NCBI GenBank assembly: GCA_951230915.1
Contig: OX579637.1
Location: 29,636,001-29,700,000, forward strand
DNA from: Antitrichia curtipendula
Lineage: Eukaryota > Streptophyta > Bryopsida > Hypnales > Leucodontaceae
DNA length: 64,000 nucleotides
Reading direction: 5' to 3'
Positions within the stretch are counted from its first letter, which is position 1. Each line of letters starts with the position of its first letter. The notes under the pieces were generated by a model. It ran no database searches. It was not told the DNA's origin and saw only the letters and a program-made list of their open reading frames with translations. The translations under genes were made by a program, and so were the position numbers. Positions 5,637 to 64,000 of the stretch are shown here, one piece after another.

Positions 5637-7331
5637 TTCACCTCGAATGGAGCTAGCAGCTATTCACCTCGAATCAAGGTGATTTGAATTGTGGATACTA
5701 CTTTTACAAGAGGACATGGCAGCCATTGATTCACTTCCACTCAAGGTGATTTGAGTGTTGGAATACTAATTCTACAAGAAGAGCAAGCGTCCATTTATTC
5801 ACCTCGAATGAAGGTGATTTAAATTTTAAGATACTTCTTCTACAAGAAAACCACGAGGCCACTGATTCACCTCCACTCAAGGTGAATTGAGTTTGGAATA
5901 CTATTTCTATGAGCAAGAGATAGCGTTATTTGATTCACCTCGAATCAAGGTGATTTGAGTTTGGAATACAATTCTACAAGAAAGACAAAGTAGCCATTGA
6001 GTGATTCACCTCCACTCAAGGTGAACTTAGTTTGGGATACTATTTCTACGAGGAAGACAAAGTGGCCTTTGATTCACCTTGAATCAAGGTGATTTGAATT
6101 TGGAATACAACTTCTACAAAAAGACAAAGTGGCCATTGATTGATTCACCTCAGTTCAAGGTGAATTGAGTTTGTGATATTACTTCTATACGGAAGAGATA
6201 GTGGCCTTTGATTCACCTCGAATCAAGAAGATTTGAGTTTGGATTACTACTTCTACATGATGACAAAGTGGCCATTGATTGATTCACCTCCACTCAAGGT
6301 GAATTGTATTTGGAATACTACATCTACAAGAGAGACAAAGCGTTCTTTGATTCACCTCAAATCAAGGTGATTTGATTTTGGATTACTACTTCTACAACAA
6401 GACAAAGTGGCCATTGATTGATTCACCTCCACTCAAGGTGAATTGAGTTTGGAATACTACATCTACAAGAAAGACAAAGCGTTCTTTGATTCACCTTGAA
6501 TCAAGGTGATTTGAGTTTGAAGTACAACTTCTACAACAAGACAAAGTGGCCTTTGATTCACCTCAACTCAAGGTGAATTGAGTTTGGGATACGACTTCTA
6601 CAAAAAAGACTATGCGGCCTTTGATTCACCTCGAATCAAGGTGATTTGAGTTTGGAATACTACTTTTACAAGAAGACAACGCGGCCTTTGATTCACCTTG
6701 AATCAAGGTGATTTGAGTTTGGAATACAACTTCTACAACAAGACAAAGTGGCCTTTGATTCACCTCCACTCAAGGTGAATTGAGTTTGGGATACGACTTC
6801 TACAAGAAAGACAAAGCGGCCTTTGATTCACCTCGAATCAAGGTGATTTGAATTTGGAATACTACTTTTACAAGAAGACAACGCGGCCTTTGATTCACCT
6901 CGAATCAAGGTGATTTGAGTTTGGAATACAACTTCTACAACAAGACAAAGTGACCTTTGATTCACCTCAACTCAAGGTGAATTGAGTTTGGGATACGACT
7001 TCTACAAGAAAGACTATGCGGCCTTTGATTCACCTTGATTCAAGGTGATTTGAGTTTGGAATACTACTTTTACAAGAAGACTATGCGGCCTTTGATTCAC
7101 CTTGATTCAAGGTGATTTGAGTTTGGAATACTACTTTTACAAGAAGACAAAGCGGCCTTTGATTCACCTTGAATCAAGGTGATTTGAGTTTGGAATACAA
7201 CTTCTACAACAAGACAAAGTGGCCTTTGATTCACCTCGAATCAAGGTGAATTGAGTTTGGGATACTAGTTCTATAAGAAAGATTAAAAGGCCTTTGATTC
7301 ACCTCGAGTCAAGGTGATTCGAGTTTGGAAT
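5637..7331. repeat. Array of about 25 A-type palindromes, ~68 bp period, upstream of copy A arm 1
   Basis: Each unit has one 21-bp site (TTCACCT-N7-AGGTGAA or the variant ending AGGTGAT) followed by about 47 bp of shared sequence (GAGTTTGG.ATAC.ACTTCTAC.A.AAGAC). Two subtypes alternate, with spacers CGAATCA and CCACTCA, giving a partly dimeric higher-order pattern. Palindrome starts go from 5660 to 7300 at steps of 65-74 bp, with an extra partial site at 5637. The array lies immediately 5' of the minus-strand arm-1 gene, in its promoter or a 5' UTR intron. Confidence 0.92.
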
Positions 7332-7825
7332 ACTTGTTCTAGATATAGAATAGAAGAAGGGAAAAATCATTTTATGTAAGAGAAAGAATAACATCCATTA
7401 AAATCGCTCACCTCTAACTTCACAAATGAATGTATATAGCCAAAATGCCACGGAAGTCTTCCAGAAATTTGGATGTCGTACACGCTGCAAACAATCAAAC
7501 CACATGTTGAAGTGAGATTGACATTCCTCAAAAAGTAGTGACACCTCCACAACGTTACGATAGTTATAGCCTCAAGAACTGAAAGCACTGGAAAGCTAAT
7601 AATTAGAACTACTCATTGGAACCTAATTCTGAACTCTTGTTTTGAAACTGCTCATTTGAATTCTGGCTAAGGAGCTCACAAAAAAATAACGATGACTCAA
7701 CAGCCTGTAAAGGTCACAGTTAATCAAAAATGAATCAAAGATGACAACAAAGCTCACAGAGAATCAACAATGACTGCAAAGGCAACATTGTATACTCACC
7801 GTCCTAAACCCTTAAATGTTCACTA
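7332..7825. other. Unassigned non-coding sequence
   Basis: Small open frames occur on both strands but none resembles another copy or a known family. I see no repeat or RNA gene. Confidence 0.4.
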
Positions 7826-8366
7826 TGATTCTTTCAAAATTGATAAAGAACCTCAGGAATCATTCAAATTGCACAATCAGTTCAAAATTCAGAAACATGT
7901 CGAAGAACGAGCTTCCGCCAGCTCGAAATTCATCAACATCCTGACAGGAAGATCACTGGATCGATGCAGCCAAACACAAACATCCTCGATCACTGGAACC
8001 CTAAATCAGGAAATCACTAATCATTTGGTTTCAAAATTCATAAAGCACCTCGGGAATCATTCAAATTGCACAATCAATTCAAAATTCAGAAACATGTCAA
8101 AGAACGACCTTCCTCCAGCTCAAAATTCATGAACATCTTGATCAGTTGATCACTGGATCAATGCAGCCAAAGACAAACATCCTCGATCACTGGAACCCTA
8201 AACCAAGAAATCACCGATCATTTGGTTTCAAAATTCATAAAGCACCTCGGGAATCATTCAAATTGCACAATCAGTTCAAAATTCAGAAACATGTCAAAGA
8301 ACGACCTTCCTCCAGCTCGAAATTCATGAACATCCTGATCAGTCGATCACTGGATCAATGCAGCCA
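7826..8366. repeat. 197-bp tandem repeat, about 2.75 copies
   Basis: GATCACTGGAT with its flanks recurs at 7951, 8148 and 8345, an exact 197-bp spacing, and the surrounding sequence (CATTCAAATTGCACAATCA, AAATTCAGAAACATG) is near identical between copies. Short degenerate pieces with CACCGATC and GATGCAGCCTAGAAATC follow to about 8500. The small open frames here are by-products of the repeat. Confidence 0.85.
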
Positions 8367-9949
8367 AACAAATCACCGATCATTTGAAAACAACCGATCA
8401 CTGCAAACCTAGAAATCACCGATCGATGCAGCCTAGAAATCACCCATCGATGCAGCCTAGAAATTTCGAAGTATGGAAACAACCGATCACTGCAAACCCT
8501 CGAAAGTAAGACCGGCAAACCATATAAGCTGGAAACCAAATCCACGGCCGAATCAAAGACAGTGAAGCCAAATCCAGAACCCCAACAACTCAGTCGTCAC
8601 TATTCAAACAAGATGCAGGTGCTGAAAGATGTAGTGCTAGTTACGTTGGTACTAGATTTGAATTTTGTGTTCAGATTCTCGTTGGTGAGATTATTGAGTA
8701 TTGATTGAATGTACGATTACGAGTCATGTACATACTGAGGTTCAAACAGCCGGCCGATGAGATTGTGGTGACAAGTGACGGCATGCCTAGAAACAGGTGC
8801 AAATCCAAAACCAGTATGACAACCAGCATCACAAAACTTTGCTGCAGTAGCGACTTGCTCTTACAAGCTAGCACTTCCTACCGCAAATACTGAGTACGTA
8901 AGTCAAAACAATGAATTTCTACGGGACTCACAATCTAAAACTGCATCGCTCGAAATTCACCCCAACCAGAGATCTTGACGTCCACGCCCACCACGATCAA
9001 GTCCAAAAAGCAACCTACTGAGACTCAAACAAAGCCGACAGAGCCTACAAGAGCAAACCAAGAGAAAGCAAAGCAATAAGAATGACAAAGTTTTGGGAAA
9101 TCACCTGGCTGCTTGCGCTCCACGACGTGCTTGTAGGGACTTCCGACGCTGCAGGAGCCCTCACAGAAATCAGTAGCGGCAGGCGCAGCTTTACGAGCCC
9201 AAATTGTCCGGTCCTCCTTGGTCTTCTCTGCGACAGGGAACAAGGCCAAAAATGGCAGTACTCATGCAGGTTTCTCCTACTGCAAATCTAGCTAGAAGGA
9301 TACTACAAACCTCAACACCCGCGATGAAAAACGAAACTACACAACTACGCCCAGCCAACGCAAGAGAACTCCAACAAAAATCTCGGTACGCGCCCGCCCG
9401 CAGGAACAAGACAAGCACATCAATATTCACTGCAAGATTTTGACAGTGCGGTATTCTCTGAACCACGACGAAGGCAAAGCCCGGGAAAGCAAACCCCAGA
9501 AACCCTAGGAGCCATCGACGATAACGAGGATCAACCTCAATTGATACCCGGACCCAGTACATATACTCGGACCATTCCCGACCCAAACCGTGACCTCAGC
9601 GATCACAAAGATCACGAAATATTTATTTTCTTAATTTTCCTTGAAAGACAATAAGAAATGACATCCAACCCAAGTTGTTTCATATTATTTGGAAGTTTGT
9701 GGAATTAGGTAAGAAATTTTGAAGTTGAAATGCCATACGGCTCTAAAAGCGACCACCTCCTAGAATGTACAGTTTCTGTACATTTTGGTACATTAAAGAA
9801 AGCAAAATGTATCTTTGTGTCATGTTTGGTTCAAAATTCTTAATCATAGTGCAAGCTTCCTCCCTTAGTGGACAACAAACATACACTTTAAACGTTTAAC
9901 GCCAAACTGGTGATAACCAATAAATCATGCTTTTCGGTACTTTGTGACA
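8367..9949. other. Non-coding; GC-richer segment 8950-9600, possible promoter region of copy A arm 1
   Basis: Overlapping short frames on both strands have no family signature. The 8950-9600 part is GC-richer than its surroundings. Comparable GC-richer parts lie upstream of the other arms (15585-16110, 43620-43870, 49830-50500). That parallel suggests first exons or promoters, but no transcript signal is visible. Confidence 0.3.
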
Positions 9950-10765
9950 TCATCTACTTTTAAAAAATTCATACCTCAAAACAGGCTGTTTGTTTTGTTT
10001 TATTTTGTTTGTTTATTTGTCACGTTGAATTCTCCCGGACCGTGCATCCCCCGGGGGCGTGCTTTGTATTGTCAGAAAGCCTTTGACCAGGAGGGGTGCA
10101 CGGGCTTTGTTTCGTGGCGTTTGGACTTATGGTGCAAAAGTTTAAGAATTTCAAAAAAATTATGGATCAAAAAATTACTAAATTATGCTAAATTAAAAAA
10201 AACTTGAACTGTGTATCAAATTATGATGTTCTTGGTAGCACTAAAAAGCCCTCGACAAGGATGGCTTGGTTTTGTGGTGTTTGGATCTACGAAGGAAAAA
10301 TTATTGAATTTCAAAGTTCTTTTCTAATTAAAAAATTAAAAAATTACCTTTTGGGTGTGGCAACAACATAGGGCACACTTTGCTTTGTGGAGTTTGGACC
10401 TAGGGTGGTAAAATTATGGACTTCTGAGTTATTTTTGGTTTTAAATATAGCTTTTACTTTTGTTTTTATTGTGCCAGCGGCATAAGTCCATACCTTAAGT
10501 TTGGCTGTTTGTTTTGATTGTTTTGTTTTGTTTGTTTGTTTGTTAGATTGAGATCTTCCGGACTGTGTGTTCCCTAAAGGCGTGCTTGGTATTGTCAAAA
10601 AGTCCTTGGCTAGGAGGGGTGCACGGGCTGCGTTTTGTGGCATTTGGACCTGCAATGTGAAAGTTATTGAATTTCGAAGTATTTATTGAATAAAAAAAAT
10701 AAAGAAACATTGTTACTTTTATTTTTTAGATTGTGGCAATGGCTAAGGACACACTAGTATATATA
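9950..10765 (-). repeat. Composite repeat block, left copy (inverted relative to 14100-15125)
   Basis: The block is built of repeated subunits with a T/G-rich TTTGTTTGTTTG tract, a GAGATCT/GACCGTGCATCCC-like stretch, AGGAGGGGTGCACGGGC, GTTTTGTGGCRTTTGGACC and AAAGTTATTGAATTTC. It ends inward in GACACACTAGT at about 10755-10765. The same modules recur in reverse orientation at 14100-15125 and, in part, at 46915-47150. No protein is encoded. Confidence 0.7.
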
Positions 10766-13700
10766 TATGTATACTCAATTCAATGTGAATGATTTTAATC
10801 ATTGTATTCAAAATGTTGTGCAACGGTGCTCATTTAATCCCTAAATGCCCAAGGCACCCAAATCTGGTGTTTGCAAAACTTTGAAGTTAAATAAAACCTA
10901 ACCAAGTTGTTATTTTTAGTAGTTTATATTTTTTTAAAGTTCTTCTTGAAGTCTAATTTTAGTACCAAAAATCCAATCTTGAAAATAAATGATAGTGATT
11001 TTTCTATTCAAGTTTCTGTACTAGGGTACCCATTGCAATCTTGACTTCCCGGAGTGTTGAGAGCTCTCGGAAATGAGCCTCAAATACACTAGATCTTGGA
11101 AAAAAAATCACATTCAAAATTCATTTAAGAAAATTGTGGAGTAGATTTTAAGAAGCCATAAATTGATTGGGGTTATAGAAGTTAGGCCCTTAACCTCATA
11201 TTTTTTTTATCACCAACTTTTTAGATTTGACTCATGTAAAGAAGATTGAAATATTTTTGTAATTTTAGCACCCTCGTGGTCAAACAGTATAATCTTTCAC
11301 TCCATAAGTGATATTGTTGTATTTTCTTTTCCTATGAGATCTCTAACATGCCTAGTTTGAATTTATACGGGTACAATTCCAAAGAATTTGATACAACTTT
11401 TCAAAATGTTGGCATTTTGTTCAATTTAGAGCAAAATCCAGGAAGCCCAAAACAGGCCTTGGGCATTTAGGGGTTAAAATCTTCATTTTATAGTGATTAG
11501 GGCTTGTAGAAATAAGCCTCAGATGCACTACAATTGCAAGAAAAAATGACTAGAAATCATTTAAAAAAATTGTAGAGTACATTTTGAAAAGACAAGAACT
11601 GGTTTGAATTATGTATAATATGTTTTTCATAGGGATATTTTTTTGGTGAGAATTTTGACATGTGACAAGAAGATAGGAAGACTTGAAATCATTTTCACAT
11701 AAAAAAAAATTCAAAATAATTTAGAACTTTGTTTTTTATACAAAGTATCTTTAACTGCATAGAAAGATTTGATTTAAAAGATTTTGGGACGAAACCTAGA
11801 CATGCTACACTGTACTATGTTCTCAACAGTTTTGAATTTTAAATTCAAAAAGAGATGTTGAACGTGAATATTATAGAATTATTTGAATAATTCTATTAAA
11901 TTTTTTTTAATAATTCTATTGAAAAAAATTGGTTAACGTAGTGCTTGATCTAATTACCGGTACCTAAATGTGATGTATACATCACATTTTCCAAATTATG
12001 TTTCATTGTCATGTTGAAGCAAATACTCCATATGAAATACCACGATCAAGGAAAAAATGAACTCTTCAGTACTTGACTGTAAGATGGAATTTAAATACAC
12101 TAATTGCAACAATGACATTTTTTTAGCTAGCAACCCTACCCACATGCAACTTCTTTTCTTACAAAAATGTAAAAGTGGAGTTCAATAAAGAACCATGAGG
12201 TTTTTTTTGAAGAAGATGATGAGATTGCTTGATAAATAAAACATTTCTTAACTTTTTCATCAATAGTCCAAAATTAATGGGATGAATGAAGTTCTTTAAT
12301 ACCCACAATAGTACAGAGTATTTTTGATGAGAAAGGTAAACTTCTCAATTTATAATTTTAGTTTTTGTGATTATTTTGGGTGACCAGATCCATAATCGAT
12401 TCTCTTAGCGAGGCATACCTTCAGGTAGAAAGCACTCATTGTAATAAAAAGGCTATAAGATCCCAACAAATTAATAGGAGACAATTTTGGCATAACTATT
12501 GCTTTTTTTAAAGAATCTTTGTTCTAATTATTGGGTATGCCTTAAAACATGAAATTTTTTGGTAGTGCTTTGTTTTTTACTTACGGCTATTCGACTTAAT
12601 ACAACAGGAAATAATGATGTTAAGTTTCTAAGTCTGAATAAATTAAACAAAAATGTAGTTGTAAGCACTCATTCAATCATCCATATTAATGGTTCTTCAA
12701 TTCATCCAATTGAGGGGTATTTCAGATGAATAAGCAACAATTTCTGTTAGAATATTCCAATAAGAATCTGCATGAGCACCTCAAGAACATCCAATACTAG
12801 CTCCTATTACGATGGTTTGAACCTATATATCTCCCTCAGTCATATACATTTAGAATAGGAAAAAATCAAATGCAAACTTTTCATGGCCTCTTGTACATAT
12901 TTATATTAGACATTTGTTGGCGGTAATGACTGCTGGGTAGAACCTCATTTTCAAAAAGTTTAAGAATGTCTACTGCATGTTTTATTGTTATGAATGTGTT
13001 TATTACTTAGTTTCCAGAAATTGAAAACATTGCCTAACACTGTCTATCTCTTTGAAGTGTTCTATTCAAACAATTAGTATGCATAATTAAGGATAATTTT
13101 TTTTGCACATTATACTAGTTGAACTCTAGTAACCTAATGTACTCTTTCAACATACGAAGTTATAAAAAATATGAATTGAATTTTCAATTGTTCTAAATTA
13201 TTGAATTACTTAGTTTGAATTTATAGACTTCTCAACCTTGATATAAATTTTAATACTACAAAATTGCAGTCTTCATTTTTTTCTCTTATGACCAATTAAA
13301 TTAATGTTATATTTTATGCTAAAAATATCCTATTAAAAAACTTAGAATCATGATTAGTAATGTACGTATTGGATAAATTGAATACAAAATAGTCCCCAAA
13401 AAATTAAATTGTTTTTGTAAATTCCAATGTATTAAAAAACCCAGCTTGAGTCATATTTTTATCTTTAGCTTTTATCTAATCTTACAGTTTGGAAATAATT
13501 AAATATTAAATAAAGATGAGCCACCCTTTATCTTCACTTACAATATTAGTCTCATTACACTGGAAAGGCATAGATATAAATATATACTTAAAATAGTTAC
13601 TTTGATGTATTGAAAAGTACAAATCAGTACCACTAACTTTGTGCGCTCTACTTTAACTAAAGAAATTAATTGACTCACAAGCAAATATAAGCATGTCATT

Positions 13701-14099
13701 TCTATATGGTTTGAGACTTATTACAACGTAATATTCTAACATCACAAAGGATAAAGTAAAGAGTATTCATTGTAAAATTTAATGAATCTCTTGCCGTGTG
13801 TGGTAAGTTTTCATTTACAGTATGAAATGTTCTTTTATGCATGATTTTTGGCTAGTTAGCTGACTAGTTTCACTAAGAAAAAACTTTAATTTACTTTATT
13901 CAAAATGATCAAATCACTATTACTTTTTAAAACTAATATTGAATTTCACCTAAGTATGTATCACTTACTCTTGATATTTATTCCAGTCAATAAATATCAC
14001 TTTAGTGTGATCCAAGTATCACATGAGTATTGAGCAAGTAGTTTGCTTCTTTTCTAGAATAATTCTTCCAAAATTGCTCTGAGTGCCCTTCTTTAGTTT
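10766..14099. other. 3.3-kb AT-rich core between inverted repeat blocks
   Basis: There is no open frame of note on either strand. The sequence is strongly AT-rich with homopolymer runs. It is either the inside of a non-autonomous element whose arms are the two flanking blocks, or older sequence between two separate insertions. Confidence 0.4.
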
Positions 14100-15125
14100 T
14101 AACTAGTGTAGCCCTGTGTCGTTGCCACAGCCTAAACAAAAAGAAGAGTCATTTTTAATACCAAAAATAACTGAATACGCTCAAATTTTTCTACTGTAGC
14201 TTAAAATGCCACAAAACAAAGCTTATGCACCCCTCCTTGTCAAGGGCTTTCCAATAGTACAAAGAATGTGACAAATTGACACACGGTTCAATAGATACAT
14301 AATTTAGCACAATTTAGTAGTTTTTAAGATCCCAAAATAACTTAAAAATACACAACTTTCAAACCATAGGTCCAAACACGAGAAAAGAAAGTCCTTGCAC
14401 CTCTCCTCTCCAAGAGCTTTTAGACGGTACCAAGAATGCGACCAAAATCAAAGTAAAAGTATTTTCCTAAATTTTTGACCCAAAGTAAAAGTCACTTTTA
14501 AAACCAAAGAAAAATAAAAAATCTATAACTTCTTCCCCGTAGGTCCAAACGCCAGAAAACAAAGTTTTAGCACCCCTCCATGCCCAGGGCTTTTCAACAG
14601 TACCAACAACGTAACAAATTGACACACACTTCACTGGATACATAATTTAGTATAATTTAGTAGTTTTTAAGAATCCAAAAGAATTCATAAATCCATTACT
14701 TCCCCACCGTGAGTCTAAACCCCACAAAACCGGTGCCGGTGCACCCCTCCACGCTGAGGAATTTCTGACGGTACAAAGCATAGCATTGGGGGATGCATGG
14801 TCTGGGAGATCTCAACGTGGCATACAAGCAAAACAAACAAACAAACAAATTTAAAGTATGGATAGATACTACGTTGCCTTGTGTTGTTGCTACATTCAAA
14901 GTAAAAGCAAAACTAATTTTCTAATTTTATATTTTATATATACTTTGAATTTCAATATTTTTCACACCGTATGTGCAAGTGCCACAAAACAAAGCCCATG
15001 CATCCCTTGTCATAGAGTGCTTTCAAATGGTACCATAAACGGAATCGATGGAAACAAGATCCTTGAGATTTCACTATAACAAACAAACAAACCTAACCCA
15101 AACAAAACAAAACTAGTAGCCTCTT
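14100..15125 (+). repeat. Composite repeat block, right copy
   Basis: It begins ACTAGTGTAGCCCTGTG then GTTGCCACA and carries several subunits with ATGCCACAAAACAAAGC, GCACCCCTCC and ACAAACAAACAAACAAA. These are reverse complements of the left block modules. The inward end ACTAGTGT mirrors ACACTAGT at 10757-10764. Confidence 0.7.
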
Positions 15126-16799
15126 TTATGGTATGGATAGAGCGTTATTGCTCCAAAGTTTGCTAGCAATTCGAATTGTCATCTACTTTGGGAAGAAGAA
15201 TATATGGCAAACAAATCCATATGAAGATAATTTCATCAATTTCCATTGATAATTTGCTCCAAATGTATTACCCAATGTAAGATTATCGGACCCTTCATTT
15301 GAGCACTAGATCCAATTTCATTGGATGTGTTTTAAATAGCCGAATGCAATGAGGTTGGGTGGGATGAGCTATGCAAAGGGTAGGCCTTGGCCATGTCAGG
15401 TGCATAATGTGCGGATTATCGGATCCTGCTAAAAGTATGTTCACGTGGATCTGACTCCTAAACTTCGTATTCCTGAAATTCTCTGGGAGGACTGTTTTCA
15501 TAAATGCAAGTAGGTGAATGTGACCTTTTCCCACTCTGTCGCCTACTTGCAAGCTTAGAGGCAGTGGAATAAAGTGACGGCAACATGAATGCCTTCAAAG
15601 TACTAAATGGATTTAGATTTTGCAAGTGGAGAAGGACCTGTCATTCTTCCGTTGTAAGCACTCTAGATTCAAGGAGAACCGTTTCAGCTTTGGAAACGCA
15701 CTTCCCTCCCAAAATTTCCCGCCTCAGTGACTATTGTTGCGTCCATTCCAAATTTTTTGACGAAGTTTGTTTGTCTGCTCTTGTGAGGTCTCTTTGCTCT
15801 AGCGCCTGAGGTGTGCGAATATTGTTGCTTATGAGTGTTTGCGATTCAACTTTTCAAGACTGGAGGGCAAGTGGACGAGTCGTAGCAAGTGGGCAACTTT
15901 TTGAAGTCGTGCTGCGGCGCTCACTACAAGGTTCATAACGTGTTCAGCTTGCGGTCGAAGGAGTCAGACAATTTCCATGGAGGTATGACGTATCCCTTTG
16001 TTTTGAATTTGATCCTCATTGTGCCGTGCAATATGCTTTTCTTTTCTTACTTGTGCGGACTCCACAGAAATGTTGGCCTGCATCATTCATCCTGTCAACG
16101 GTTGTGATTTTGGTTTGTAATTCGTAATCATGATGTAACTCTGTTAGTTTTCTTCAATTCAGTGCAAGTGTATGTTCAGTTGAGGAAAAATTCGGTAGCA
16201 ATTGCATTAGGAAAAGCTATGTCCAATTCTTAAATTTCTCGTTTAGAATTTTTTTTTTCTTCGTTGATTTTCAATTGGTGCGGCTTTAGGTTTTAGGTGT
16301 TTGCTTTGTTATTGTAGTATAGTAGTGCCATCTGAGATAGCAGAGGTAATACTAGTGGTATCCTAAACCTAAAAAAGTAGGATCGAAAGTAGAATTGCTT
16401 TGCATGCGCTGCGTTGTTCAATTGAATTCCATTTGTCTTTCGGTTTTCTGAATTGCAATGTAGAATGTGTGAGGCAATTCACCACAGATGTAGCTTGAAT
16501 AGCAAAAATTGTGCAATCGTAAGGGACAATTCTGTCTTCAGTCATAGTTCTTGTCTCAGGTTGGTCTCATTTGTTGTCACTTGTACTTGTTCAAATGTCT
16601 TTGTATAAGAGAGATTTCAAGCAATTGACCAAATTTTTGGAACTTCTGTGTTCACTGCTCTATTATGAACTCTGAAGATTATACGGAGGAGTTCTGGAAG
16701 GCATGCGTCTACATTGAAATTGATGTTTTCAGTTGTCTTATTGATTGATAATTGCAAGCAAATACCCCATTATGATTCTTGTTATTAGTCTTGTTGTTT
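15126..16799. other. 5' region of the DUF7869-type gene, copy A
   Basis: A GC-richer part at 15585-16110 is followed by T-rich DNA. A good donor, CATGGAG|GTATGACG, is at 15983, and an acceptor, TTTTTGTCAAATAG, ends at 18348 just before the DUF7869 start. A 5' UTR intron of about 2.4 kb holding palindrome array A2 is possible. No coding sequence is supported. Confidence 0.35.
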
Positions 16800-18240
16800 G
16801 GAGGTGAATATCATTGGATCATAGTTATGAATTCATCACCGTTTGAGGTGAATATCTATGACATATTGTTTCCAATTCACCTCCACTCGAGGTGAATATC
16901 ACTTGAACAAAGTTATGAATTCATCACAGTTCAAGGTGAATATCTTTTACACATTGCTTCTAATTCACCTCCAGTCGAGGTGAATATCACTTGAACATAG
17001 TTATGAATTAATCACCGTTCCAGGTGAATATCTTTGACACATTGTTTTCAATTCACCTCCACTCGAGGTGAATATCACTTGAACATAGTTATGAATCATC
17101 ACCGTTCTTGGTGTTTACTTATGACACAATGTTCCCAATTCACCTCCACTCGAGGTGAATATCACTTGAACAAAGTTATGAATTCATCACAGTTCAAGGT
17201 GAATATCACTTGAACAAGGTTATGAATTCATCACAGTTCAAGGTGAATATCTTTGACGCATTGCTTTCAATTCACCTCCACTCGAGGTGAATACCACGCA
17301 AATATAGGGTTTTTATTCCCTACCCAAACCCTAAATATCATATATACATTGTATTTAATTTTCCTTTATTGAGTATGAATATTACTTTTATATGCCTGCA
17401 AGTGTACGTCCAGTATAGTTCAATATCACTTGTAGATATTAGTCAGACTACCTACATTTCAGGTGGATAGTTTGTCAGGTCACCTCCACTCGAGGTGATT
17501 ATCAGGTGGATACTTTGTCAGTCCACCTCAAATCGAGGTTTATATCAATTGGACGATTTTTCAATTCTCCTTAACTCAAGGTGAAAAGCACTTCTAAAAT
17601 GTACTCAGGTTGCTTCCGTTTGTCAAGAATTCATCTTTTGTGTGGTTTGTAATTGCCCTCCAAATTGTCCTTCAAATTACTCGGGAATATGTTTTTTCAA
17701 TGAACTAAACTATATATGGGTCTGAAACTATGTTGATGTAACAATCAATGAGACAGAGTAGATTTACTTAAATTCAATCTCGGTATATAAAAAAAGGTCA
17801 TTTCGTCAATCACCTCTACTCGAGGTGAATATCAATTATAGATTTTGATCAACTTACCTGTATTTGCAAATTCTACATCTTGTATAGGGCTTGTAATTCA
17901 CCTCCCAAGAAGGTGAATGTTACTTGAAGACAGTTCTTATTTATTTGTTGGTTTTGTTGAAAACAAATAGGTCATTTTATAAATCACCTACATTCCATTT
18001 GAATATCACACCCTAATGAAAGTCGGCTCTCCAATATTAGAGCTGAAACTTTTTGGTGGAAGTTCTTGATTTACCTTTATTTGAGGTGAATATGAGCTGA
18101 ATATTATTTTCAACTAATTGTGCTTGAAGTGAAGACGACATGATCAAATTGTTTAATTTTGTTAGACTGTTGATAGGATAGCACTTTTAGGAAGTATCTA
18201 TTTCACCTTTACTCACCTTTATTGTAAGTGAGTTATTGTG
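16800..18240. repeat. A-type palindrome array A2 upstream of the DUF7869-type gene
   Basis: Perfect sites TTCACCT-CCACTCG-AGGTGAA with slight variants start near 16876, 16965, 17050, 17140 and 17272, set in a repeat of about 88-90 bp (AATATCACTTGAACATAGTTATG). Half-type copies (CACCGTTCAAGGTGAATATC) lie between them. Looser sites follow near 17478, 17520, 17566, 17808, 17898 and 18070. The half-site is that of the copy A arm-1 array, about 10 kb away and on the other arm. Confidence 0.88.
17326..17334 (+). promoter_or_regulatory. Telo-box-like motif
   Basis: AAACCCTAA is a known plant promoter element. A near match (reverse strand) lies at about 50298-50306 upstream of copy B arm 1. Nine bases can occur by chance. 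Confidence 0.3.
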
Positions 18241-18383
18241 ACTACTAGTCTTTCACTCTTTCTTACAACTTATGGAGTATATCGTTGACTTGTTTCAAAA
18301 AGAAAACTCTATGCCAGTACAACACTTATATTTGTTTTTGTCAAATAGGCTAATGACATCGCCTTTCATATGATGAATAGATC

Positions 18384-34436: not shown

Positions 34437-34504
34437 TTCAAGTAGATTCAAGTTGAATGAAAAGATGTGTGCATTGGTGTTCTTTCAAGTAGTTTCAACT
34501 TGAA
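34437..34504. repeat. Two C-type 21-bp palindromes in intron 2 of copy C
   Basis: TTCAAGT-N7-AGTTGAA at 34437-34457 and TTCAAGT-N7-ACTTGAA at 34484-34504 share the 7-7-7 layout of A and B sites with a different half-site. They lie in the intron that carries A sites in copy A and B sites in copy B. Confidence 0.75.
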
Positions 34505-35360: not shown

Positions 35361-35381
35361 TTCAACTTGACTTGAGTTGAA
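35361..35381. repeat. C-type 21-bp palindrome 3' of arm-1 gene copy C
   Basis: TTCAACT-N7-AGTTGAA, a perfect 7-7-7 site, lies between the decayed arm-1 gene and the FCP1-like gene of copy C. Confidence 0.75.
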
Positions 35382-51380: not shown

Positions 51381-51429
51381 AAAACATTTATACTAAACAA
51401 TAATTCTGCTGCTACAGATTCTAGTCGTC

Positions 51430-52831: not shown

Positions 52832-53055
52832 GTGAGTATTCTTCTATTTATCTACAAGTCATAGATAATTGTAGGGTGTGTGCCAAGTAGATGGTCCAGT
52901 ACATTTATTTCAATGAACAGTTATCAGTCATGTATCCGAGTAGAGCATGTAATGAACTCATTATCCCCGAGTCAAGGATAGTCGCTCATATCAACACTAT
53001 GAAAACTCCAATCACCAAACACTAATAGGAGCTTTGAATGAAATGCTCATTGCAG

Positions 53056-54621
53056 AGATTCATACAAGGAGTGATGACCAAGCTCCAGAGTAATAACCCG
53101 AAGGTAGACGATGCCAAGGTCAAGCTCCTTTCAGACATTAAGAATGAAATAAGGATCGTGACGTTGCTCGACGCCGCGTACAAATTGTGGGAGGAGTTCA
53201 TCAAACTGTACATGCAAGGGGCACTGTTTGATCTAGTCACAAAAAGGCCATTCTATGAAGCAAAGGACTTCAACATCAAGAAATTCTACCTCAAAAGAGA
53301 ATTCTTCAAGCATATGGGTCACTTCTCAAACAAGGACTTGGAGGAGTACGTCCTACATCTGCTTGGAAGAACACCAGGCTGTATGAGAGACTACCCAAAA
53401 GTCTTTGTTGGCAAGACGAAGGTCTTGGTTGAGGACAACATGGCTTCAAGTGGCTGGGTGGAGCGGAGGAAGCGCAAGAAAACCATGCTCGATGAGCTTC
53501 AAGCTATCAACCGTTCCTACAGACTGAAGGACAAGAACGGTGATGTCAAAGACAATGTGTGGAGGGTGTTTAAGAAGGACCATTGCTTCACCTCAACATC
53601 GTGGGATTTTTTGCTCATGGCAACACCGAATAGCTTCTTCGTGAAGCGCCTTATGAACGAGGCGAAGAAGAAGATAGCAATAGACTTGAAGGGCAATGAT
53701 AAGTTCTCGACGGTCTACCCAATGTTCAATCAATTCATGCGATTGAAGAAGTCCCTCGATGTCAGGGATAGAGATGTCTATGTTCAAAGGCACTCATGTC
53801 TTCCACAAGCATTTTGTACAAGTCATGTATGGCCGTACTGCGACCGAAGGCCAGGGTTGTCTATTCGGACGTGACATGGGGTTTTTACGTCCGGATGTCC
53901 GTCAGCGTCAGTCCGGACGCATCGAGAAGGCGTCATGATCAAAAAATTTTTTTTTTTTCGAGGACGGTCATCCGTCCAAAAAAAAAATTTTTTTTTTTTT
54001 TTTTTTGATCCTGACAGACGTTGAAGTTGAATCCTGACATCCGTCCGGACATCCTGACGAACGGACAGGACACGACAGAGACAACCATTGGCTGTCATAG
54101 ACTTTCGGAAGCTCCCAAGGCTAGTGCCTGGATCTGAAGATCCAGCCCCAACAACTCCACTGCTCGTGTTCCTACAGAACTACATGACGTCAAAGCTGTC
54201 TAAGCCAGATGTGTGGTTGTGGATCATAGGTACCAACTATGATGCAGAGTCAGTCATCAGCTTTGCCAGGAAGCATATGAAGGACTTTGTCTTGAAGTTG
54301 TCTAAATATATTGCCTCTAAAGCCGAGCGACTGGACAACACCGCCAATTGGATGTCGACAACACCATCAATCAAGCTGCTCTTCCTCTTCAAGAAAGGCA
54401 AGGATGGCACTGGCAGGGGGATTGACTCTATGAAGGACCGGTATGTCACATGCGACACACTTTACTACACAGAGTGGTCGAAGAACACGAAGGCGAAGTA
54501 CAGGGTCCACAGTTGCGAGCTCCACATGGAGTTCTACCTAGACATACTTCAAAGCTTCTACGTCACCGGGGAGAACGTCATTAGTGTCTACCCAGGCGTG
54601 AAATTCATGATTGCTTGTAAG
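53056..54621 (+). pseudogene. Exon 2: degenerate methyltransferase-like region, copy B, split by an insertion
   Basis: Opens after acceptor CATTGCAG in phase 0 (RFIQGVMTKL) and ends at TGTAAG|GTAAGAG. It contains DYPKVFVGKTKVLV, RRKRKKTMLDEL, WDFLLMATPNSFF (place of the lost [DNS]PP[YFW] motif), DVWLWIIGTNYDAE, KLLFLFKKGK, CELHMEFYLDILQSF and GENVISVYPGVKFMIACK (motif-I-like). The only breaks are a frame change near 53770 and a foldback insertion at 53856-54085. Without them the exon is open from end to end, so it decayed recently. Confidence 0.55.
53856..54085. mobile_element. Small foldback element inserted in exon 2 of copy B
   Basis: Begins GTTGTCTATTCGGACGTGAC and ends GACACGACAGAGACAAC, so the ends are inverted repeats (GTTGTCT/AGACAAC). 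The inside holds further inverted GTCCGGAYGTC/GACATCCGTC motifs around a long A/T homopolymer. There is no coding capacity. Copy A has uninterrupted homologous protein sequence here, so this is an insertion. No clear target-site duplication was seen. Confidence 0.6.
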
Positions 54622-54646
54622 GTAAGAGAATTCATGCTGCCCTTAC

Positions 54647-54761
54647 TTATCTTTGCCTTGAGGATATTAATATCTAATTGATTTCTGCCAATAGTTAGTT
54701 GATGGCTATTCCATGGATGATTTCATTACATTTGCTATTGTTATCTTCGGCTCGAGGATAA
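54647..54761. repeat. Two B-type palindromes in intron 2 of copy B
   Basis: Sites at 54647-54667 (TTATCTT-TGCCTTG-AGGATAT) and 54741-54761 (TTATCTT-CGGCTCG-AGGATAA) lie in the 199-base intron 54622-54820. Intron 1 (52832-53055) has another near 52962. Confidence 0.85.
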
Positions 54762-54820
54762 CTACCACGTAATTCTATTATCCCATAATTGACATTTGAC
54801 AATTCACTTGTGATTTTCAG

Positions 54821-56251
54821 ATGTATAGTCTCTACCGCTACGCCCTTGCAGAGAGACATTCATTCCAAAAGTACCGAGAGATGGTGGAGAAGCACGAAAT
54901 GAGGTTGGACCTCAACGACTTCTTGCATGACAATTCGCCTTACCTTGCCAACTACGTGCGACCCCGTCTTTTTGGAACTCCAGAGTTCAATTTTGAGTCC
55001 TCGCCCTCAACGGAGGACAACCCAAATCATCCTATGGACTCCACGAATAATGATTCAACAGGGCCAAGGGAATTCGTTGGTGAGGACGTTGATGAAACCA
55101 TCTTCATCAATTAGTTTGGGTCGAACGAGAACCTTGTAAATAGGGGTAACATATCGATCCGCCTGGAGGACTTTCAAGTGCTGGATCGGGGACGAGCAGC
55201 TACTTTAGCATCAGCACATGCCACTGTTGCCAAAACAAGTACTCGGAAGGAAAAGGGCAAGAAGTCTGCGGAGGAGATCATATTGGCTATTGATCCAGAC
55301 AACATTCCAGACTTGTACTTCGATTTGGAAGACATCAATTACGGAATGGATATTGAAGTAGTTGGACCTTTAGGGGTAGGAAGTAGTAAGGACCAGTCAG
55401 ACCTGCCTACATTAAGATGCCTTTTAGACTTCGGTGTTTCTGCAATTCTTCCAGAAGTGATTCTTGTTACTGTGAAGATGGAAAAAATGGATTTTTGGAA
55501 GGAAAGGAATGAGAAGAAGGTTGCCAAGAGGGCAGAGGAAGCGCGTGAGAAGGAGAGGATGAAAGAGTTGGAGGCCGAGAATGTCAGACTAAGAGGCATT
55601 GAAGAGGAGAATGCGAGGCTCAAGAAGGAAGTGGAAGAAGAGATGAAGGCATTGCAGGCACTGAAAGCCTTGATCTCTTCTCAACAGGATCATCCCTTGA
55701 ACCTTGCCCTAGTCCTTCCCCAGGCGGAGAAAGTAGTGGAGGCTGTAGAATCACCCATGCTATTCTCCGGCTAGCAGTCCATCGCTCCTCCTGCCCTTGG
55801 TGATCTTCGTCCCGAAGATAACCTTGCCAATTTGCCTTCATTAGCCGATGATATGGTAGACCTTGCCCCAGGCATAAAGAACAAGGCTGCTCCTCTTCTT
55901 GCTGATGCTATTCAGTCCAATGTCCAAGAGGAGGCCCCACTGATTAGTCTTGGAGTAGAGCGCCTACAGCTTGGTGTGACTTATCCTCGACTTGAGGATA
56001 AGTCAGGCGAGCCATCTAACTTGCAATGTCAAGCTGGTGCAATATCAGAGACGCAAGAGGAGGATCTTAGAGTTCTAGATCCTGTCCCCCTTCCAAAGGC
56101 ACCATCGGTACATGAGTTGGTGGTAGAGCCACAAAATCCTCCGGATGACATAGATGAATCCGACTACTCAACAAATTTAGAGCAGGGCTACAACCTGACG
56201 CCTGGTCAAGTATGTCGTTCACCATCATTTGACCCTTACGATTTTTCTTGA
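54821..56251 (+). CDS. Exon 3 of the arm-1 gene, copy B: coiled coil and acidic tail, two in-frame TAGs
   Basis: Opens after acceptor TGATTTTCAG with MYSLYRYALAERHS and LDLNDFLHDNSPYLANY, matching copy D. One frame of 476 codons runs to TGA at 56249-56251, interrupted only by TAG at 55112-55114 and 55772-55774. A long coiled coil (MEKMDFWKERNEKKVAKRAE, VRLRGIEEENARLKKEVEEE) is followed by an acidic C-terminus ending SFDPYDFS (copy D: SLDPYDYS). Two B-type palindromes are read as protein (GDLRPEDN at 55801, YPRLEDK at 55981). Whether the TAGs are decay or are tolerated cannot be settled from sequence. Confidence 0.6.
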
Positions 56252-56574: not shown

Positions 56575-57625
56575 ATGTCTGAGCTCAGCGCAAAAAACTT
56601 AAATGTATACCGCGTCCCATGGCTCTCCGACAATCTCTTAATGGAGGTGTTATGCAATCGCGTAGTGGGATCCAATGTTGTTCCCCATTTGTGTAGTTCA
56701 CCAGATTCCGCATTTATACAGGTAACTATATCTCTTTCTTGTTTTGTTTGATTAGGTAGTAGCGAGGGGGCGTAGAGAGACTGTACTGCGCACTGTTTCC
56801 ACGTTAGTTACCCAACCACGGCAAAAGTGGTTGAACGTCATGTTTGATTTGAACCGCATATTGTGTGAGAGCGATGGTCAGAGGCCTTACTTGAAAAAAG
56901 ACTATTATGAAGTGCATGATAATATTTTCTCCAATCAAGTTCCCACTATCATTAAGTCAAAGGCCATCTTCGTTCGTCCCAACGTCCGAGAATTCCTAGA
57001 CGAAGTCTGTAGGATCTTGAATCGCGTCGTAGTTTAGAGCTCGATGATGAAGAAGACGGTGGAGCCCCTCATGAGTTTCTTGTTCCAAAACTGTAGAGTG
57101 CCATTCAACATCCTAGGTCAAGACAAATGCAGGAGGGTAGAAATGTCGAAGGGGAATTTCCTTAAACAAGCAAGGAGCCCCTGGAAGTATTTGTTTCTCA
57201 AAGTCTTGCAAGAGCAGTTGTTTGTTGACCCTAATGACCCTGCGTCCTTTAACAGGGACAATACTATTCTCATTGACGACAATCCGCAAAAAGCCATCCT
57301 CAATGAGAACGGGAATGGGATATTCCTCGAGAGTTGGAGACACCTTGCTCGTGGGGACTAAGTCCTCATGGGCAGCCTCGCTCCTTGGTTGAGGCGACTC
57401 CATGAAGGCTGTCCAATCTGGCGCTTGCGCGAGTTCGTTGATGCAAACTGCATCAGTGTCCCTCCCATGTGCCCATCAGATGATAGAGCCGAATATATAT
57501 TGGGAGGGTTGAACGATTCCGCAATGAATTTGGGTTCACATTTTGTCCTATCCGGGTTGAATGTAGTGATTGAGCCAAAGAGCGTTAGTAGGAGGAGGAG
57601 ACTCAAGTTCTCCGTGTTCGGATGA
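56575..57625 (+). pseudogene. FCP1-like phosphatase gene, copy B, two stops
   Basis: Exon 1 (MSELSAKNLNVYRV, 56575-56721) is followed by a 34-base GT-AG intron (56722-56755) and exon 2 from 56756. Exon 2 has KWLNVMFDLNRILCE (motif I with Asn for the second Asp), AIFVRPNVREFLDEV, then TAG at 57035-57037 exactly where copy D has Trp (VVWSSM). It continues with TILIDDNPQKAILNENGNG (motif IV), TAA at 57359-57361 (copy D: Asn) and MGSLAPWLRRLHEGCP to TGA. The frame is otherwise intact and 60-70% alike to copy D by eye. It belongs to the B/D subfamily. Confidence 0.75.
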
Positions 57626-58943: not shown

Positions 58944-59710
58944 ATTATTAATAGAATATTCATTCACAAACAATTTTTAACGTAGGCAAGTGCTTCATGT
59001 GCACGTGACCTCTATAGTTTTACACTCATACATTCAATCATTAGAATTATCGGAAATGTTCATATCACCTATTAGGTGAAGTATATAAACAAGCGACATT
59101 AATTGTTTGCAATGTAGATGGATTCTCAAGTAAATTCATGTCTTTCAATGTAAAGTGACTACTTGTTTATAAATGTCACATACTTCTTGACCAATCATGC
59201 GGATTTACATTATTCATCTCTTTATTGGTTGAAGGCCATATTCATTAAAATGAGACGAAATGGTCAATATGGGAACCTAAGTCCCTTCTTTTCAAAGATA
59301 AGTTGTTGGAGGCTAAGATAATTATGGACACCATTACCAACAATTAATCAAGAGTTTGCTATTTTAAAATGGTCACGAAGATAAATTTTTGTTTTATTTT
59401 GTCAAAGCTTAGAGCAATCACAAACTCACACAATGCAAAATGGAATTTGACATGGGTGGTCAAAAACTATGTAACATTTATAACAACTCAAGTGGTCAAT
59501 ATACGTTTTTTAACAAAAATCTACTTGAGATCCCATCTATATATGAACCAATTTATCTTGTTTATATATACTATAAAGCCTAGGAAATGAAATCATTCCC
59601 GTAACTCTAATGATTGAATATGATAGTGTAAAAATATGTAGGCCATGTGCACATGAAGCATTTGCCTTTTCTAAAAAATGTATGTGAATGAATATTCTAT
59701 TAATAGTAAT
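58944..59710. repeat. Inverted 3' flanks of copies B and D (tail-to-tail junction)
   Basis: 58944-59200 and the reverse complement of 59451-59710 are homologous: ATTAATAGAATATTCATTCA, TGCTTCATGTGCAC, TTCAATCATTAGA, TATATAAACAAG and CACATA.TT.TTGACCA occur in the same order. The 250 bp between the arms (59201-59450) is not shared. The outer ends of the homology near 59200 and 59451 are the best candidates here for element boundaries. Confidence 0.75.
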
Positions 59711-60720: not shown

Positions 60721-61010
60721 ATAACCCTTACACAATTTATCCTTGGTCCAAAGATAACAAACTACTTGCATAGTTAATATCTTTAATTCATTTTTAAGAC
60801 AAAGCCTCCACAACTATTCTCCAACCAAAAACAACAAGATCTCAAAGACCAGAACTTATCCTTGACCCAAAGATAACTCAACATAGACAAAACATAGAAT
60901 CAAAATGAAACTTCAAAATTTTACTAATACACATGAATGAAATTTACATAATAATTTGTATTCACAATATGTACAACGCTTTCTACGATCGACGAGTATA
61001 TGCAGAAGTA
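60721..61010. repeat. B-type palindromes between tail and FCP1-like genes, copy D
   Basis: TTATCCT-TGGTCCA-AAGATAA near 60738 and TTATCCT-TGACCCA-AAGATAA near 60858. Same relative position as the cluster at 57832-57940 in copy B. Confidence 0.8.
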
Positions 61011-62033
61011 CTATTTCTTCCTACGTCTCTTCGGCTCAATCACTAGTTTCATCCCCGGCAAGACAAAACGGGACCCAAAATTATTGGCGGACTCCTTCAT
61101 GCCGTTTACCACTCTGTATGCAAGATGGGACTCAGAAGACAAGGGGGGCACGCCAATGCGGTTCGCATCAACAAACTCGTGCAAGCGACCAAGTGGACAT
61201 TCCTCATGAAGTCGTCTCAACCACGGAACCAAACTGCCCAACAATACATTGTCTCCACGCCTTTCATGATTCCAACTCTCAAGGAATATCGCATTCCTGT
61301 TCTCATTGAGGACGCTCTTTTGCGGAGAGTCATCAATGAGAAGAGTATTGTCCTTGCTAAAGGACGTTGGATCATCCGGGTCTAGGAACAATTGATCTTC
61401 AAGCACTTTGAGAAGCAGGTACTTCCAAGGGCTCCCAGTCTGTTTAAGGTATTGCCCCTTGGACACTTCTATTGTCTTGCACTGTTCTTGGCCTAGGATA
61501 TCGAAAGACGCCTTGTTGTTTTGGAACAAGATACCAGCGACAGGTTCCACAATCTTCTTCAACATGGAGCTCCAGACTACAATGCAATTCGTGATCCTAG
61601 AAAGCTCGTCGAAAAATTCTTTCATGTTGGGACGAACGAAGACGGTCTTGAGCTCAATGATAGTGGGGATTCGGTTGGAAAATATATTCTTGTGCACTGT
61701 GTGATGCCGTTGTTTCAAAAATGACTTGTGAAACAAGCACTCACACAGTACTCCGTTCAAATCAAATACAACGTTCAACCACTTCTGCCACGGTTGAGGA
61801 ACTAGCGTGGACACACTCCGCGGCACTCTCTCTCTCCGCTTCCTTGCTACTTACTAATCAAACAAAACAGAAAAGATATGTAGTTACCTGTTGAAATGTG
61901 GAATCAGGTGACTCATAAAACGGCAAACAATACTTAACCCCACTAAGCGACTGTAGAACCCCTCCAGTAAGAGGTAGTTTGAGTGGGAACGGTCGAAGTA
62001 CACTCATATTTTTTTGGCGCTGAGCACAAACAT
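61011..62033 (-). CDS. FCP1-like phosphatase gene, copy D (best preserved)
   Basis: Exon 2 (61853-61011) is open over about 270 codons to TAG. It has KWLNVVFDLNGVLCE (motif I, Asn for the second Asp), TVFVRPNMKEFFDELSRI, CIVVWSSMLKK, TLLIDDSPQKSVLNENRNA (motif IV), a Trp-rich segment and a basic C-terminus (EPKRRRKK). Length fits an SCP-type domain. Exon 1 (62033-61890, MFVLSAKK then SPDSTFQQ) has a one-base slip, and a 36-base GT-AG intron (61889-61854) follows. Exon 2 begins with TAA where copy B has GTA, so the 5' end may be damaged or a different start used. Loss of the general acid/base Asp argues for a pseudophosphatase or altered chemistry. Confidence 0.72.
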
Positions 62034-62341
62034 GGTCAAAATGAATCCATTAGACACGAAATTCACCGAAGAATAGTGCCCCGTATATTTATTTCTCAAG
62101 TAATTAAGGTACATCCGGTCTACCGGTTTTGATGAGTTACTATCCAATTTGGTTACAGTATTCACTACACTTTGCTTGAATATGTACACTATCCTACAAG
62201 ACGAAGTTACAGAGAGCAGTTTGTCGACGCCAAACAATCAGAGACTGTCCATTTCCTCCTGTCAATCAGAATGAATCGACATAAGAGATCCCTCATGAGA
62301 AACCCACAAGACGAACATCCATTACATTCCAATGGACAGAC
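62034..62341. other. Spacer between arm-1 gene and FCP1-like gene, copy D
   Basis: Counterpart of 56252-56574 in copy B. No coding sequence. GAGACTGTCCATTTCCTCCT near 62235 resembles the reverse complement of the copy B spacer. Confidence 0.4.
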
Positions 62342-63772
62342 TCATGAATAATCGTAGGGATCTAAAGATGCTGGAGATTGTACCTGACCGAGATTGATGT
62401 TGGCCGTTTCTTCGTCTATGTAACCCCCATAGTCCAAACTCTCCTCTTCATCAGGCGGGTTCTCGAATTCAACCACCATATTGTGGTTCGGAGAGGCAAT
62501 GGCAAGCGGTACTGGATCCGCCGGAATCTCACCTTCCTCTTGCGTCTCCGGCACTGACTCCCCTTGGAGTTTGACATCAGCGAGCCGACTTAAGTTATCC
62601 TCGCATCGAAGATAACCCGATTCAGCTTCACGTCTTGCTAGTCCGGTTGTAGAGGACGGGATCTCGTCATGCCCCTCTTCCTCCCGTTGAACATCTGGTA
62701 GTTCTGGCTCAACACGCGTGGGTCCAGTACTGTCCTCATCCAAGGTAGGATGAGTGACAACATTATCTTCGACGCGAAGATCCTTTGGGGTCTCAGCCGA
62801 GGTTGTTCGCTGAACACAAGCCCGAGGTGAAGCAGCATTATCCTTGCCTCGAGGATAATGCTAGATGTTGGCCAAAATCGACTTCTGAACGGAGCCCTGT
62901 GGAGATCCAGAACTCATTTGCTAAATGGATCGAGAGACTGACGGATCCTGCGTCATTGTCTTGAGAGAGACATTCTTTTTCCTGAGTTTCTCTAGTTCCG
63001 CCTTCAGCATCTCCTTTTCCAATTGCTGCTCTGTCCATCTGGCTTCTTCTTCTGCCCTCTTCAGGGCCTTCCTCTCCGCATGCTCCTTCCAGAAGTCTTT
63101 GTTCTCTTGCTTCATCGAAAGCAAAACTGTTTGACCCTGAACTGGATGCACAACAGACTCCGCAGCAAGCTTAGGTCGCACCTCCAAAGCTGATTCCACT
63201 TTATTGTTGGCACTTGAGGGCCCCCCTTTGTCAACCTCCGCATCCCCGTAGTCAATGTCATTCAAATCCGAGTAGGACTCCTCGAGTTCACTCAGATTGT
63301 GTATGGCCACTGTCCCCTCAATGGGCATCTTGTTCTTCTTCCTCGTCTTCTTCTCTGCCACAGCCATCACCTCCACCTGCTCTGAGCCCCTTGCCTCTTT
63401 CTCAACATCTGGCGGGGTCAATTCAGGCAACTGATTCATCACCTAGACACCGGTTATAATAACCTCCAAGTCGTCGCCGCCGACCATATCCGTGTTCGTC
63501 CCGAACTCATTTATCCCGAGTTCCAAGGCACCACCGTGACCACCTAAGTCGGCTTCCCTCTCTGCAATTTCGATGGGATCCGCTAAGGACGGCGTGGACT
63601 CAGAATCTAGTTCCGGAGATGACAGGTTGCTTGGACGTTCATAACCTAGAAGGTATGGCGAATTCTCATGGTAGAAGTCCTTGATGTCCAGGGAACTTCC
63701 GTACTTTGCCATCTCCCAATGCTTCTCGGATAGATGTCGCTCGGTAATCCCATAGTAATAGAGGCCATACAT
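62342..63772 (-). CDS. Exon 3 of the arm-1 gene, copy D: three in-frame TAGs
   Basis: Opens after acceptor GTCCTGCAG with MYGLYYYGITERHLSE and LDIKDFYHENSPYLLGYERP. One frame of about 476 codons runs to TGA at 62342-62344, broken only by TAG at 63443, 62921 and 62861. It contains KKTRKKNKMP, a coiled coil (MKQENKDFWKEHAERKALKR, LEKEMLKAELEKLRKKN) and an acidic tail (PPDEEESLDYGGYIDEE, SLDPYDYS). B-type palindromes at 62595, 62763 and 62838 are read through (YLRCEDN, YPRGKDN). The first two TAGs fall in the same two inter-domain regions as those of copy B. Confidence 0.6.
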
Positions 63773-64000
63773 CTGCAGGACCACAAAGACAAGTTAGTAC
63801 CCAATTCACAATTTGAATTGCAGATACAAACTCTAGAACAGCTATCTTTGAGTCGAGGATAAATGTTCAACAGTCTATAAACAAGACTTGATGTACAAAA
63901 TCGATTAAGAGGCCCAGATTGGTATTAAAATCCTATTCAAGAACTAATGCTAGCTGTTGATCTAGGATGGTTATCCTCGAGCCGAAGATAACCATCGAAC
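63773..64000. repeat. Intron 2 of copy D with two B-type palindromes
   Basis: Sites at 63842-63862 (CTATCTT-TGAGTCG-AGGATAA) and 63971-63991 (TTATCCT-CGAGCCG-AAGATAA) lie in the intron 5' of exon 3. The upstream exon lies beyond the window. Confidence 0.8.

Follow-up and report, generated by a model that had tools for sequence, protein, structure and literature searches.

A 64,000-nucleotide stretch from the moss Antitrichia curtipendula (contig OX579637.1, positions 29,636,001 to 29,700,000; hereafter the window) carries numerous 21-bp palindromes, which belong to DNA transposons of the cut-and-paste type, about 24 kb in length and bounded by terminal inverted repeats (TIRs). Each palindrome comprises two inverted 7-bp half-sites on either side of a 7-bp spacer, and the half-site varies with the branch of the transposon family. 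The elements share a layout in which a NIF-like phosphatase gene lies downstream of the arm-1 gene with its ParB-like exon, a gene for a DUF7869 protein points in the opposite direction, and palindromes are located 5' of both the arm-1 and the DUF7869 gene. We propose that a dimeric protein of element origin, most likely the arm-1 product, may use the palindromes to recognize its own element, in a role similar to that of the VANC proteins of VANDAL transposons. Binding, the identity of the reader and its anti-silencing activity are what we infer here, and we regard the proposal as evenly poised.

Element A spans C5:29634193-29658119 (window -1807 to 22119; 23.9 kb), ends in the TIR AACACCATATTCATTAATTTGAGAG and is flanked by the 4-bp target duplication CTAC. 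Matching TIRs and 4-bp duplications (CTAC, TCAA, CTAA, CTAA and CATG) were present in 5/5 copies of A. Scanning of the window for a half-site, 7 bp and the reverse complement of the half-site, with 20 shuffles within 500-base blocks as the measure of chance, revealed at up to one mismatch 34 TTCACCT palindromes (16 exact; shuffle mean 0.0), 22 TTATCYT palindromes (11 exact; 0.2) and four TTCAAST palindromes (three exact; 0.15). This amounts to 60 sites as compared to ~0.35 from the shuffles (0.0+0.2+0.15), in agreement with an earlier note on this DNA that had counted about 60 sites of one 7-7-7 layout. Variation of the spacer length at the same stringency gave a peak only at 7 bp, with 0-2 sites at 4-6 and 8-10 bp. 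Exact searches with the three class patterns in the 400-Mb genome returned 2379 forward and 179 reverse matches for TTCACCTCNANTCRAGGTGAA, 737 and 750 for TTATCYTCGNNYCGARGATAA, with many sites matched on both strands, and 243 sites for TTTAACTCGNNNCGAGTTAAA, every one of them on both strands. The backward-read controls of the three patterns had no match genome-wide.

The placement of the sites agrees largely with the earlier description. Site positions confirm arrays 5' of both genes, and both arm-1 introns of A hold one site (at 3894 and 2440, that is before position 5637, where that description began). As a correction, some sites of B and D fall within coding sequence. A spacer resembling CGANTCG, as originally suggested, is found mainly in B, D and the newly recognized classes, whereas the spacer of A often reads CCACTCA. 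The two halves of one TTATCYT palindrome differ at the Y position in 23/60 exact sites as compared to 29.9 expected for independent halves, which is a weak effect.

Half-site classes follow elements and their phylogeny

Half-sites differ sharply between copies, as the earlier note had claimed. At up to one mismatch, the five A copies contain 26-40 TTCACCT sites each and no TTATCYT site, whereas D has 27 and B 15 TTATCYT sites and neither has a TTCACCT site; B carries one TTCAAST site in addition. Within one element, the sequences flanking the sites are unrelated between regions (introns and genes, array 1, array 2), with identities of 0.26-0.37, which is near chance. The CG..CG ends of the spacer, which played no part in site selection, agree at 0.79-0.84 across the regions of D and at only 0.35-0.73 in A; the agreement of half-sites across regions is in part due to site selection.

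Both arms carried the same half-site class in 6/6 elements, a result equalled by 4 of 720 permutations. The window had already supplied A, B and D; L033, L037 and an element on C8 were newly retrieved, the arm-1 side after the DUF7869 side for L033 and L037 and both sides together for the C8 element. In all three new elements, the region upstream of arm 1 and intron 1 bear the class of the DUF7869 side. No recombinant with arms of differing class, by which the reading arm might have been told, was present among the six elements. The possibility that A to D are unrelated units was rejected, as B and D share their class and have proteins closer to each other than to those of A (four arm-1 open reading frame (ORF) pairs with 34-50% identity between B and D, NIF-like pair 61%).

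To this were added 14 DUF7869 loci chosen from protein listings for spread of identity and an open frame; for two of them, on C1 and in the 70% clade, absence of a nearby TTCACCT array was already known when they were chosen. Upstream of these genes the layout was strong at nine loci, weak at two (L033, L038), degenerate at two (L042, L043) and missing at one (L041). The half-site is TTYAACT in the 70% clade (L032, L037 and, weaker, L033), TTYAGST in the 66% clade (L034, L035, L036) and TTATCYT in the clade of B and D (L039, L040, L044, L045 and, weaker, L038), the classes TTYAAST and TTYAGST having been named only after inspection of L032-L037. TTATCYT sites are listed completely for C1:0-14.8 Mb, and on that segment they lie within 3 kb of 4/4 loci with at least 78% identity to the B protein. 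On a DUF7869 tree with 16 tips, the four classes need three changes, and 4 of 20,000 label shuffles needed as few; L041, where the site is missing, and all but one of the four A copies were left out of this test, and the degenerate L042 and L043 were counted as TTATCYT. Half-site difference correlates with DUF7869 protein distance (Mantel r 0.85; 0/5000). Thus, the tree and the agreement of the arms indicate that class tracks element phylogeny, as had been anticipated. The change of half-sites is not clock-like: clear members of the B/D clade down to 59% identity (53% with the degenerate L042) keep one half-site, as against three half-sites among A, the 70% clade and the 66% clade, which are 50-68% identical. 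A more distant DUF7869 lineage of the same genome (L053-L055), whose open frames reach ~1070 amino acids, showed no sites in the approximately 1.9 kb read upstream in 3/3 cases, and the idea that DUF7869 genes have such sites as a rule was rejected on this ground.

Palindromes remote from these genes were assessed on the same segment of C1, which holds 16 TTATCYT clusters. Five were set aside, namely four beside DUF7869 matches and the cluster 1033024-1046544, whose sites extend over 13.5 kb and which has no DUF7869 match in the scored list. All 11 remaining loci proved to be miniature elements of 253-256 bp (one of 378 bp) without a gene, with TIRs like or related to that of D (4-7 mismatches in the diverged L056, L057 and L061) and with clean 4-bp duplications in 10/11 cases. 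Random occurrence of isolated palindromes in unrelated genes, which the earlier note had named as the contrary outcome, was accordingly rejected for TTATCYT on this segment. The one isolated TTCACCT locus that was read, L064 at C1:47.63 Mb, has no such explanation: it holds several diverged TTCACCT-like sites, but a recognizable A-type TIR was not seen up to 750 bp away.

In the reverse direction, the exact D TIR served as a palindrome-blind query on the segment, where it occurs at eight places. Two of these look like the ends of full-length elements, and the other six belong to miniature elements. In 6/6 of the latter, a palindrome with intact half-sites was present 42 bp inside the TIR, and in two of the six a spacer change had concealed it from the exact pattern. 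Across the six miniature elements, 1.2% of comparisons differ at the half-sites, 6.9% in the rest and 11.9% in the spacer. The TTTAACT class also occurs in short tandem forms; of two that were read, one ends on the right in a sequence similar to the TIR of A.

Candidate readers of the palindromes

In the proposed mechanism, each subunit of a dimer would read one half-site (TT-n4-T) across the fixed 7-bp spacer, and different branches of the family would read different n4 letters. The reader may mark its own element, that is the promoter regions of both genes and the arm-1 introns, together with its own miniature derivatives, and its most likely task would be to protect non-coding element DNA from silencing, in the way of VANC in VANDAL, so that this DNA stays active or accessible. 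Given the symmetry of the site, its fixed spacer and its identity across both arms, introns and derivatives without genes, a dimer site for a factor of the element itself appears to be the simplest explanation. The arm-1 protein, with its ParB-like exon and later exons, is the most likely reader. It is weakly favoured over DUF7869 on three grounds. The L053-L055 lineage lacks sites, the sites of full-length A lie ~4 kb from its ends (1.5 kb in D), and arm 1 shows the faster divergence when elements are matched by position, with identities to A of 41% for arm 1 vs 70% for DUF7869 (C5:11.86 Mb), 40 vs 70% (C1:52.7 Mb) and 33 vs 66% (C8:25.39 Mb).

Several observations weigh against this proposal. 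Linkage of half-site class to phylogeny is by itself expected from co-inheritance. Sites are lost or degraded at 3/14 of the further DUF7869 loci, the intron sites of the three newly retrieved elements have 1-2 mismatches, and B is weak on its arm-1 side, where just two sites have at most one mismatch. Conservation of half-sites in miniature elements is suggestive only (variable columns 1/28 vs 27/164; Fisher p 0.086), and the spacer is their most variable part. No DNA-binding fold was demonstrated for arm 1, where the model of exon 3 has a predicted local distance difference test score (pLDDT) of 40 and was therefore not taken on to a fold comparison. Finally, the ratio of observed to expected CpG is 0.48-0.50 in the A arrays as compared to 0.62 in the whole element and 0.53 in the flank, and among the 27 D sites the spacer CpG has changed to TG or CA at five left and eight right positions. 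The CpG depletion of the arrays and the decay of spacer CpGs argue against lasting hypomethylation at the sites.

Reading of the palindromes by the DUF7869 protein as putative transposase, for instance through its N-terminal helical region, is an unlikely but serious alternative. The palindromes would then be accessory sites for the transposition complex, comparable to internal activating sites or the subterminal repeats of Spm. However, at up to two mismatches the outermost sites of the window copy of A lie ~4.2 and ~4.0 kb from its ends (in D, ~1.5 kb from the left end), a long distance for bringing the ends together. Sites are also present in introns and ORFs, and one DUF7869 lineage is devoid of them (3/3). 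The case against this reader has a weak point, in that A and D agree at 20/25 TIR positions and 5/7 half-site positions, so that the rates of change are not clearly different. The VIA rows of the DUF7869 model cover mainly residues 366-626 and barely the N-terminal part.

A more specific scenario strikes us as improbable. Here, a ParB-like protein of prokaryotic origin, perhaps once a fusion of ParB with a methyltransferase, would read branch-specific 21-bp dyads, spread over the element and shield full and miniature copies alike from silencing, while n4 switches stepwise with the protein, resulting in self/non-self discrimination of the parS type. The ParB-like exon is linked to ParB-parS by a motif (see below) and by a Pfam match to DUF6551 that misses the cut-off (E value 0.06). 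For exon 3 of arm 1, a fold resembling methyltransferases, as the G-rich stretch NPGDAVFTICGGGKIICAAW might suggest, is not claimed at the model pLDDT noted above.

Slightly less probable still, the palindromes could be operators of an autoregulator, either repressor or activator, acting at two divergent promoters without any role in silencing or mobility. Sites 5' of both genes in 6/6 elements would suit such a regulator, but gene-less miniature elements retain sites, introns and ORFs contain them, and up to about 25 sites per array exceed what an operator needs. Binding by a host moss protein, with the elements exploiting a host factor family of varied specificities, is very unlikely. We count in its favour that TTATCC reads GGATAA on the other strand, which we take to resemble the plant I-box or MYB-related site; however, each of the four classes is tied to one transposon clade and the arms agree in 6/6 elements, which would require a separate host factor for every clade. 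The arrays are indeed tandem repeats, as a neutral by-product of slippage inherited with the element would be, yet this most improbable explanation is at odds with unrelated flanks between regions of one element, with single intron sites in A, D and the three newly retrieved elements, and with the spacer fixed at 7 bp.

Relation to known systems

The parallel with VANC fits in anatomy, in that the known motif is short, forms tandem arrays, lies upstream of genes and in introns, and differs between relatives. According to two reports, the motifs of Arabidopsis VANDAL21 and VANDAL6 occur in tandem repeats, introns and upstream regions and vary between relatives (PMC5735166, PMC10398659). VANDAL shares with the moss elements one or more accessory genes besides the transposase, a dense short motif in non-coding tandem repeats and an accessory protein with highly variable regions (PMC5735166, PMC10398659). 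The parallel, drawn already in the earlier note, stands for this anatomy (PMC5735166) but not for the Mutator-like (MULE-type) transposase. The VANDAL motif is 9 bp long and arrayed in one orientation, whereas the moss site is a 21-bp palindrome with a fixed spacer; the moss elements also differ in having DUF7869 as the probable transposase, TIRs with 4-bp duplications, a ParB-like arm 1 and sites in miniature elements.

Transposons of the CACTA/Spm type encode the protein TnpA and carry subterminal repeats. The moss elements are similar in their repeated short motifs and in an element-encoded protein, here the presumed reader, but their TIRs begin AACAYC or AAGGCC rather than CACTA, their duplication is 4 bp instead of 3 bp and the sites of full-length A are internal. 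TnpA activation has been linked to demethylation (PMC10398659). Fungal DNA transposons are reported to carry TET/JBP genes and resemble the moss elements in having a gene that may act on the transposon's own epigenetic state; the fungal product is an enzyme, whereas a sequence-specific binder is proposed here (PMC12730594). A ParB-like exon with arrays of dyad sites nearby is also reminiscent of ParB-parS, from which the moss elements differ by the absence of a partition context, the longer site and the weak similarity of the exon.

The name DUF7869 did not occur in a literature collection of 5.39 million papers, and searches for giant moss transposons, new superfamilies and ParB in combination with transposons gave no account of this element, as judged by titles and the openings of abstracts. 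If the reader is confirmed, the elements would represent a second, apparently independent transposon lineage that tags itself with a DNA word of its own family, here from mosses and alongside a different putative transposase. Four or more protein-site pairs of one geometry would then form a natural series, in which one could test the switching of DNA-binding specificity and how protection is shared or lost between transposons and their miniature parasites.

Features of the window and its surroundings

Table 1. Features of elements A, B and D and of scrap C (window coordinates)
Feature	Position	Strand	Basis or remark
Element A, in-window part	1..22119	.	five copies compared by blastn
A, NIF-like (CTD) phosphatase gene, in-window part	1..521	-	tblastn with D NIF-like ORF, E 4.7e-24; match runs to about -91
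A, arm-1 gene	1748..5470	-	ORFs, sequence, other copies, Ceratodon homologue P0106
A, TTCACCT-N7-AGGTGAA site, last arm-1 intron	2440..2460	.	site scan and sequence
A, site with 1 mismatch, arm-1 intron 1	3894..3914	.	site scan and sequence
A, array 1	5663..7318	.	23 sites at <=1 and 25 at <=3 mismatches; repeat unit ~67 bp
A, array 2, TTCACCT sites	16832..18090	.	44/88-bp units; flanks unrelated to array 1
A, DUF7869 gene	18381..21224	+	single 947-aa ORF; Pfam 6.7e-40; model and fold search suggest transposase-like fold
Scrap C, arm-1 exon-like remnant	33583..34190	+	tblastn
Scrap C, three exact TTCAAST sites (34437, 34484, 35361)	34437..35381	.	site scan
B, candidate left TIR (AAGGCCATATTCATTAAAACAAGAC)	39093..39117	+	right end not found
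B, DUF7869 gene, broken copy	39740..42462	-	tblastn, 42-47% to A
B, six TTATCYT sites (<=1 mismatch) 5' of DUF7869 gene	42682..43335	.	site scan
B, TTATCYT sites 5' of arm 1, mostly 1-2 mismatches	50394..52319	.	site scan
B, arm-1 gene	52295..56251	+	ParB-like exon match 52295-52777, then ORFs to 56251
B, NIF-like phosphatase gene	56759..57601	+	61% to D NIF-like ORF
D, left TIR (AAGGCCATATTCATTAAAATGAGAC)	59232..59256	+	D reaches about 80241 or 80440, beyond window
D, TTATCYT sites, in-window part	60737..63991	.	site scan
D, NIF-like phosphatase gene	61014..61850	-	Pfam NIF 1.3e-15
D, arm-1 gene, C-terminal part	62345..64000	-	matches run on to 66638
D, DUF7869 gene, broken	76782-79403 (beyond window)	+	homology match

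The A DUF7869 protein is 72% identical to a protein of Ceratodon purpureus and 63% identical to one of Physcomitrium patens; at E<=0.1 its gene has no Pfam match other than DUF7869, and transposase families were absent among the matches of 20 ORFs scanned against Pfam. In Ceratodon purpureus, the homologues of arm 1 and DUF7869 (KC19_3G000200 and KC19_3G000300) have neighbouring locus tags. With splice sites placed by eye, the arm-1 exons of A are the ParB-like exon (about 4031-5470), a second exon (about 2486-3848) and the last one (about 1748-2365). The window copy contains one in-frame stop and one frame break, and the exons are open in other A copies (491 and 468 amino acids). Homologues of exon 1 have the motif NGQHxVEAS in common. 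An arm-1 exon (P0115) is filed under an uncultured Leptolyngbya bin and is perhaps moss DNA in a metagenome bin. In A, B and D alike, arm 1 is followed downstream by the NIF/C-terminal domain (CTD) phosphatase-like gene, which the transposon may have captured as a gene of host type.

The right end of B was looked for and not found, and the broken DUF7869 gene at 39740-42462 was assigned to B because of the adjoining sites. The exact D TIR has 55+55 matches in the genome. The last arm-1 ORF of B and D contains palindromes at 55801-55821, 55981-56001, 62595-62615 and 62763-62783, three of which encode the repeated peptide LR-x-EDN; at these positions, the palindrome appears to influence the protein sequence. 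Scrap C, placed by its sites and not by phylogeny, appears to fit the TTYAAST class. Between A and C, related minus-strand ORFs (23405-24229, 29665-30182 and 31919-32467; 57-63% identity between two) probably represent another mobile element. To the left of A, an arm-1 scrap (window -5302 to -4235; L010) has TTCAAST-like sites with one mismatch at -4817 and -4744, and the central part of A contains a 197-bp tandem repeat (window 7832-8370; 2.7 copies, 92% matches).

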